Origin: Thermoplasmatales archaeon
GTDB taxonomy: Archaea > Thermoplasmatota > E2 > UBA202 > JdFR-43
DNA: 60,485 nt
Direction: 5' to 3'
Assembly: GCA_014361195.1 (NCBI GenBank)
Contig: JACIWA010000008.1
Location: forward strand, 1-60,485
Positions within the stretch are counted from its first letter, which is position 1. Every line of letters starts with the position of its first letter. Below are positions 26,672 through 26,760 of the stretch, one piece after another. The position numbers and the translations under genes are program-made. The notes under the pieces are model-generated. The model did not search any database. It saw only the letters and a list, made by a program, of their open reading frames with translations, and was not told the origin of the DNA.

Positions 26672-26760
26672 GCCCCGGTGGTGTAGCGGTTATCATGTGG
26701 GCCTGTCGAGCCCACGACCCGAGTTCAAATTGCAAATGCATGAAAATCTCGGCCGGGGCG
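26672..26760 (+). tRNA. tRNA-Asp(GTC) with an intron in the T-loop
   Basis: The acceptor stem pairs GCCCCGG (26672-26678) with CCGGGGC (26753-26759); the discriminator is G 26760 and no CCA is encoded. The anticodon stem TGGGC/GCCCA encloses the loop CTGTCGA with anticodon GTC at 26705-26707. The D-loop AGCGGTTA has the G18-G19 pair. The T-stem is CCGAG (26719-26723) and CTCGG (26748-26752). Between the arms lie 24 bases instead of 7. Removing 17 bases restores a standard TTCAAAT T-loop. The ATG-initiated frame that crosses this gene on the minus strand is spurious. Confidence 0.93.
26730..26746 (+). other. 17-nt archaeal tRNA intron (position 59/60) in a bulge-helix-bulge
   Basis: The pre-tRNA folds as a textbook BHB. 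The outer helix is the T-stem. The central 4-bp helix pairs TTCA (26724-26727) with TGAA (26741-26744). The 3-nt bulges are AAT (26728-26730) and AAT (26745-26747). The inner helix pairs TGC (26731-26733) with GCA (26738-26740) around a loop AAAT. Cleavage after the second base of each bulge, the archaeal EndA rule, releases 26730-26746 and rejoins the T-loop as TTCAAAT. The exact cut sites are inferred from the rule. Confidence 0.88.

Follow-up and report, generated by a model that had tools for sequence, protein, structure and literature searches.

A candidate 17-nucleotide T-loop intron in tRNA-Asp, one of a set of position 59/60 introns in an order of Thermoplasmatota

The canonical archaeal tRNA intron lies at position 37/38 within a bulge-helix-bulge (BHB) motif, in which two 3-nt bulges flank a central helix of 4 bp, and the genome encodes the endonuclease EndA and the ligase RtcB. 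Each bulge of a BHB is cut after its second base. The tRNA-Asp gene described here has the same motif in a genome with both enzymes, but the insert is located in the T-loop, at 59/60, and the introns at this position are short (13–30 nt in this genome). Non-canonical introns of Crenarchaeota, Thaumarchaeota, Nanoarchaeota and ARMAN resemble it in T-loop location and as BHB mini-introns (PMC6379350). Those lineages possess (αβ)2 or ε2 EndA, often with a specificity-broadening loop, and carry introns at numerous positions, frequently several in one gene, whereas this genome has an α′-type enzyme without the loop, and one extra position, 59/60, was found. Intron transposition in Thermoproteales likewise places similar introns in different tRNAs, both within one genome and across related genomes, with rapid gain (PMC4033280); the present case differs in its phylum, in its single fixed insertion point with a near-invariant exon half, and in the occurrence of an intron within a provirus repeat. 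Multi-intron tRNAs of Methanothermobacter and Methanopyrus are also euryarchaeal genes with more than one intron (PMC4033280), but few genes are involved there, compared with an order-wide T-loop set here. Intron-bearing euryarchaeal tRNA genes have been described as carrying a single intron at the canonical position (PMC4090602); the order studied here breaks this rule in position and nearly fits it in motif. A literature search of limited reach returned no description of T-loop introns in Thermoplasmatota, and a prior report is possible.

The tRNA-Asp gene and its insert

The window, that is, the whole analysed stretch of 60,485 nucleotides, contains a tRNA-Asp gene in which the region from T54 to C61 spans 24 bases of DNA, as opposed to the normal seven. 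Removal of 26730–26746 leaves TTCAAAT. The gene is organized as follows.

26672–26760, + strand: tRNA-Asp(GTC) gene with putative T-loop intron; G73 at 26760, 3′ CCA not encoded
26672–26729, + strand: 5′ exon, positions 1–59; same sequence as in the intron-free orthologues of G001, G002, G004 and G009
26730–26746, + strand: putative intron, 17 nt, TTGCAAATGCATGAAAA, position 59/60
26747–26760, + strand: 3′ exon, comprising T60, T-stem 3′ strand, acceptor 3′ strand and G73
26672–26678/26753–26759, + strand: acceptor stem GCCCCGG/CCGGGGC, by cloverleaf reading
26705–26707, + strand: anticodon GTC; anticodon stem TGGGC/GCCCA around CTGTCGA
26719–26723/26748–26752, + strand: T-stem CCGAG/CTCGG, outer helix of the BHB
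26724–26727, + strand: 5′ strand of the BHB central helix, TTCA, T54–A57
26728–26730, + strand: 5′ bulge AAT; predicted cut between 26729 and 26730
26731–26740, + strand: inner hairpin TGC-AAAT-GCA, from folding
26741–26744, + strand: 3′ strand of the BHB central helix, TGAA
26745–26747, + strand: 3′ bulge AAT; predicted cut between 26746 and 26747

The D-stem includes a G10–U25 pair. The sequence matches the description in the sequence-only reading with respect to the coordinates, the 17-nt insert, its T-loop position and the full BHB. The edges of the insert are ambiguous through an AAAT repeat, and the register that yields 59/60 was chosen by the BHB cleavage rule. The spliced form is called as tRNA-Asp(gtc) by ARAGORN, while the unspliced form receives no call. 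On the window, ARAGORN reports no tRNA and thereby misses the gene, and the Rfam tRNA model does not match it at cut-off: the score is 20.8 bits (cut-off 29), with the 3′ end placed wrongly. The predicted risk of oversight by gene finders is borne out with both tools.

Unconstrained folding of the T-arm gave −9.2 kcal/mol without the central helix and −9.1 kcal/mol with it; the BHB is therefore an equal-energy alternative for the precursor, with no clear winner. A random 4-mer would pair with TTCA with a chance of about 1.4%. These odds, seven further genes of the same kind and a sister orthologue that differs by exactly 17 bases argue against a product of chance. The suggested search for another tRNA-Asp gene, in an assembly of 1.25 Mb in 39 contigs that is 96% complete, found no second copy with two covariance models (RF00005 to E=10, and the T-loop-intron model R1).

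We consider it very likely (probability about 0.93) that the 17-base insert at 59/60 is removed as a protein-spliced archaeal tRNA intron and belongs to an order-wide Thermoplasmatota set. The evidence supports the proposed position and canonical BHB, with splicing itself predicted from DNA. In the pre-tRNA, the T-stem would serve as the outer helix, and T54–R57 would pair with an intron YGRR stretch to leave two 3-nt bulges and form the BHB. The α′-type EndA would cut both bulges, and the RtcB-type ligase would join the exons into a normal tRNA-Asp.

A set of T-loop introns and the splicing enzymes

Covariance and pattern searches, with the loci read, placed 59/60 introns of 13–30 nt in eight of the 44 tRNA genes found in this genome and anticodon-loop introns in four (Met, Thr-TGT, Tyr and Trp). 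The 44 genes comprise 38 above the Rfam cut-off together with Asp, Ala-CGC, Ala-GGC, Arg-CCT, Pro-CGG and Trp. Beyond what the sequence-only reading had described, the tRNA-Asp intron is thus one of at least eight at 59/60 and has a clean intron-free sister orthologue. The further seven are in Lys-TTT (18 nt), His (29 nt), Pro-CGG (30 nt), Ala-CGC (13 nt), Ala-GGC (15 nt), Arg-CCT (15 nt) and Leu-CAG (13 nt). The 13-nt introns lack the inner helix and form a bulge-helix-loop; their occurrence shows that 17 nt is not the minimum size here. Among the eight genes, five fall under the Rfam cut-off and seven receive no ARAGORN call. Neither model found tRNA-Ala(TGC) or tRNA-Arg(CCG) in the whole genome. 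Since these two expected isoacceptors were not found, the tRNA set is incompletely accounted for, owing either to assembly gaps or to an interruption that both models miss.

Two side observations concern individual genes. tRNA-Trp(CCA) (G000:C4:3980-4300, L076) has a long anticodon-loop intron, which is probably the known box C/D guide intron, and the Rfam tRNA model matches only its 3′ end. In the two species of the genus (G000:C2:65015-65106, L071; G001:C35:1138-1229, L162), the T-stem of tRNA-Lys(TTT) contains an A50–C64 mismatch (GAGGG/CCCCC); in other genera this stem is paired. The mismatch is possibly tolerated, or possibly subject to C-to-U editing.

For a survey of the order and phylum, a parser was used that made no demand for a BHB; it required the T-stem, the acceptor stem and TTCRA, and the spliced product had to be called by ARAGORN. 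After removal of alternative registers, 67 T-loop introns were left, with lengths of 13–46 nt (median 30). The central helix has all four pairs in 58 of them and three of four in nine; eight of these nine have G57 opposite A, all in tRNA-Lys, and the remaining one has A–C. The intron partner of position 57 changes with the base at that position. A57 faces T in 21 of 22 cases, while G57 faces C in 33, A in 8 and T in 4; the covariation (T versus not-T, 21:1 versus 4:41) has a Fisher p of 2e-12. Pairing of the inner hairpin beside the bulges averages 2.3 bp, compared with 0.65 in shuffles, whose maximum in 2000 was 1.16. The minimum-energy fold lacks the central helix in 31 of the 67 T-arms. The G57–A departure from the 4-bp rule beside the bulge recurs in tRNA-Lys TTT (L149, L150, L151, L153, L155, L156, L158 and L163) and spans families f1, f2 and f3 within this one isotype. 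A match from the first parser, L006, proved to be a normal tRNA-Met with no intron.

Each of the three families of the order has T-loop introns at 59/60, and such introns are sparser elsewhere in Thermoplasmatota. Pattern search of the class outside the order returned mostly background (matches in coding sequence and probable rRNA that lack BHB pairing), and the distribution was therefore taken from covariance model R1. Of 194 genomes from the phylum, 32 have a match to this model at E<=1e-12. Where loci beyond the order were read, T-loop introns were again present, in Arg-TCT of family f25 (L215, L216 and L217) and in Lys-CTT of f27 (L214) and f42 (L213), and the f25 matches include single-contig genomes.

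The sole splicing endonuclease gene found (G000:C3:142030-142968) encodes a 313-residue EndA with two PF01974 (tRNA_int_endo) stretches and a TIGR00324 match above cut-off. The enzyme has the catalytic Tyr, His and Lys, which are conserved across the order. The EndA alignments of the order contain no loop insert where 3p1y, presumably a loop-graft construct, has extra residues relative to 1r0v. The protein is of the α′ type, as judged from one ORF of about 300 residues with two endonuclease repeats and the catalytic residues in the C-terminal one. The subunit check proposed earlier accordingly gave a single, intact-looking α′-type gene, and an (αβ)2 or ε2 organization with a CSL/ASL insert was not seen in it. 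The EndA frames of relatives are about 20–35 residues longer at the N-terminus, which may have been shortened in this genus. An RtcB ligase gene is present (611 bits, G000:C9). Judged by EndA, the closest named relatives are MAGs of Thermoplasmatota, among them JdFR-43, S5B3_HD70 and AUK146, in agreement with the suggested euryarchaeal-type host. EndA aligns over both repeats with its best PDB relatives, 1r0v and 2gjw, which we take to be A. fulgidus EndA entries, as PMC6379350 supports. The α′ EndA is described as narrow in specificity, and the A. fulgidus enzyme removes a 37/38 bulge-helix-loop intron from full-length pre-tRNA (PMC6379350). Introns without an inner helix or with three central pairs might be cut poorly by a narrow-specificity enzyme.

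Gain or loss of the introns and their proposed spread

Since TTCRAA..T and the T-stem are near-invariant among tRNAs, each T-loop would present the exon half of a ready-made BHB. This half is supplied by T54–R57, A58, A59, T60 and the T-stem, and an incoming intron may therefore need little beyond base pairing with R57. One intron could then serve many tRNAs, allowing copying between tRNA genes and gain or loss within a genus. Within this genome, Leu-CAG and Ala-CGC have an identical 13-nt intron, and the Arg-CCT and Ala-GGC introns agree at 13 of 15 positions. Introns in Arg, His, Glu, Cys, Lys and Ala tRNA genes from different genera have a core in common, TGCAACTTG..CAAGTTGC. As expected of intron transposition, near-identical introns are found across isotypes in one genome, and empty orthologous sites are found in the sister species G001. 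T-arm gene conversion, reverse splicing and mobile elements are possible copy routes. We tentatively propose, at somewhat less than even confidence, that T-loop introns of the order act as portable cassettes: the invariant T-loop would let a narrow α′2 EndA serve many isotypes, and cassettes would move between genes and species by T-arm exchange, partly on proviruses.

The G001 genome contains a head-tail provirus, a 22,015-bp unit in tRNA-Arg(CCT) with tyrosine integrase (PF00589), terminase, portal and tape-measure genes. Its boundaries are as follows.

G001:C4:16809-16883 and G001:C4:38824-38898 (L218, L219): 75-bp attachment direct repeats

The 75-bp repeat begins in the anticodon loop and takes in the rest of the tRNA up to its 3′ end. 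The T-loop intron, 30 nt in length, is part of the integration site, because the repeat contains it complete. The provirus therefore indicates that T-loop introns are no bar to integration and that viruses can carry them. Spread by tRNA-targeting integrative viruses, in which an intron in the attachment site is swapped into the host tRNA on integration, would fit both the complete intron in the repeat and the state of the tRNA-Arg(CCT) locus in G000, the genome that carries the window: no provirus occupies that locus, and its 15-nt intron is of a quite different sequence. This route nevertheless seems rather doubtful: it is illustrated by one case, both repeat copies have the same intron, which was perhaps in the host beforehand, and the G001 type may be the older one, since similar introns are present in Arg-CCT genes of other genera. 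T-arm gene conversion explains the shared introns equally well. Pattern scans of viral contigs for intron-bearing T-arms gave no viral T-loop intron; the matches were coding-like, apart from one terminator-like hairpin (L232), and none was in a tRNA. The provirus terminase has no relative in the viral contigs, and the att region has no match in phage records.

The tRNA-Asp orthologue of G001 has conserved flanks and an identical tRNA sequence minus exactly 17 bases. Four of the eight genes differ in this way within one genus: G001 is without a T-loop intron in Asp, Pro-CGG, Ala-GGC and His, and its Lys-TTT, Leu-CAG, Ala-CGC and Arg-CCT genes do carry one. In the EndA tree, G000 and G001 are sisters, and the pair is nested inside the family with support 100/100; the G020 row was read on the wrong strand and was ignored. 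The tRNA-Asp genes read from other family members have no T-loop intron, and many carry a 37/38 intron instead. This absence and the sister relationship of G000 and G001 favor a recent gain in G000, which is the simplest reading of the tRNA-Asp sequences. The alternative, that the intron was lost in G001, is unlikely, and it would leave the intron reading untouched. In its favor, another family of the order has tRNA-Asp genes with T-loop introns as well (G019, L056; G020, L067), and His introns are so widespread that loss in G001 is the most simple account for that gene. However, the tRNA-Asp introns of that other family (f2) are dissimilar in sequence, and for Asp one gain is simpler than many losses across the family members read. 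For His, Pro-CGG and Ala-GGC, whose T-loop introns are present in other genera, loss in G001 is as likely as gain or likelier. The tRNA-Asp genes of L056 and L067 are each interrupted by introns twice, in the anticodon loop and again in the T-loop. Having argued for gain at tRNA-Asp, we note that the sister pair offers clean before-and-after sites of intron gain or loss; snapshots of this kind have been called for by reviewers (PMC4033280).

Two further alternatives concern the insert itself. The gene could be a decaying copy with a chance 17-nt insertion, the functional copy being elsewhere, and a 96%-complete assembly in 39 contigs leaves room for a missing copy. This is very improbable, given exon sequence that matches four intact relatives at all of 59 nt, an intact 3′ part, the lack of another Asp gene by two models, and same-phase inserts with complementary changes in seven other tRNA genes. 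An assembly or sequencing error, conceivable for a single MAG, is extremely unlikely, because BHB-forming inserts recur at the same position in eight genes here and in tens in independent genomes, which is not an error pattern.

Possible consequences for annotation and splicing specificity

T-loop introns hide tRNA genes from annotation and may explain reports of missing tRNAs. In Methanomassiliicoccus luminyensis, tRNA-Lys was undetected (PMC4153887, with ARAGORN among its cited tools); by analogy, a T-loop intron might be the cause.

Judged from the DNA, the tRNA-Asp intron appears real, with the strongest argument being its membership of the set, and its splicing is predicted. Introns at unusual positions have been tied in the literature to broad-specificity endonucleases, whereas the enzyme here is of the α′ type without the crenarchaeal loop. 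The co-occurrence of an α′ EndA with numerous T-loop introns, almost all of which have the canonical motif, therefore suggests that position and motif are separable, and EndA may require the motif only.
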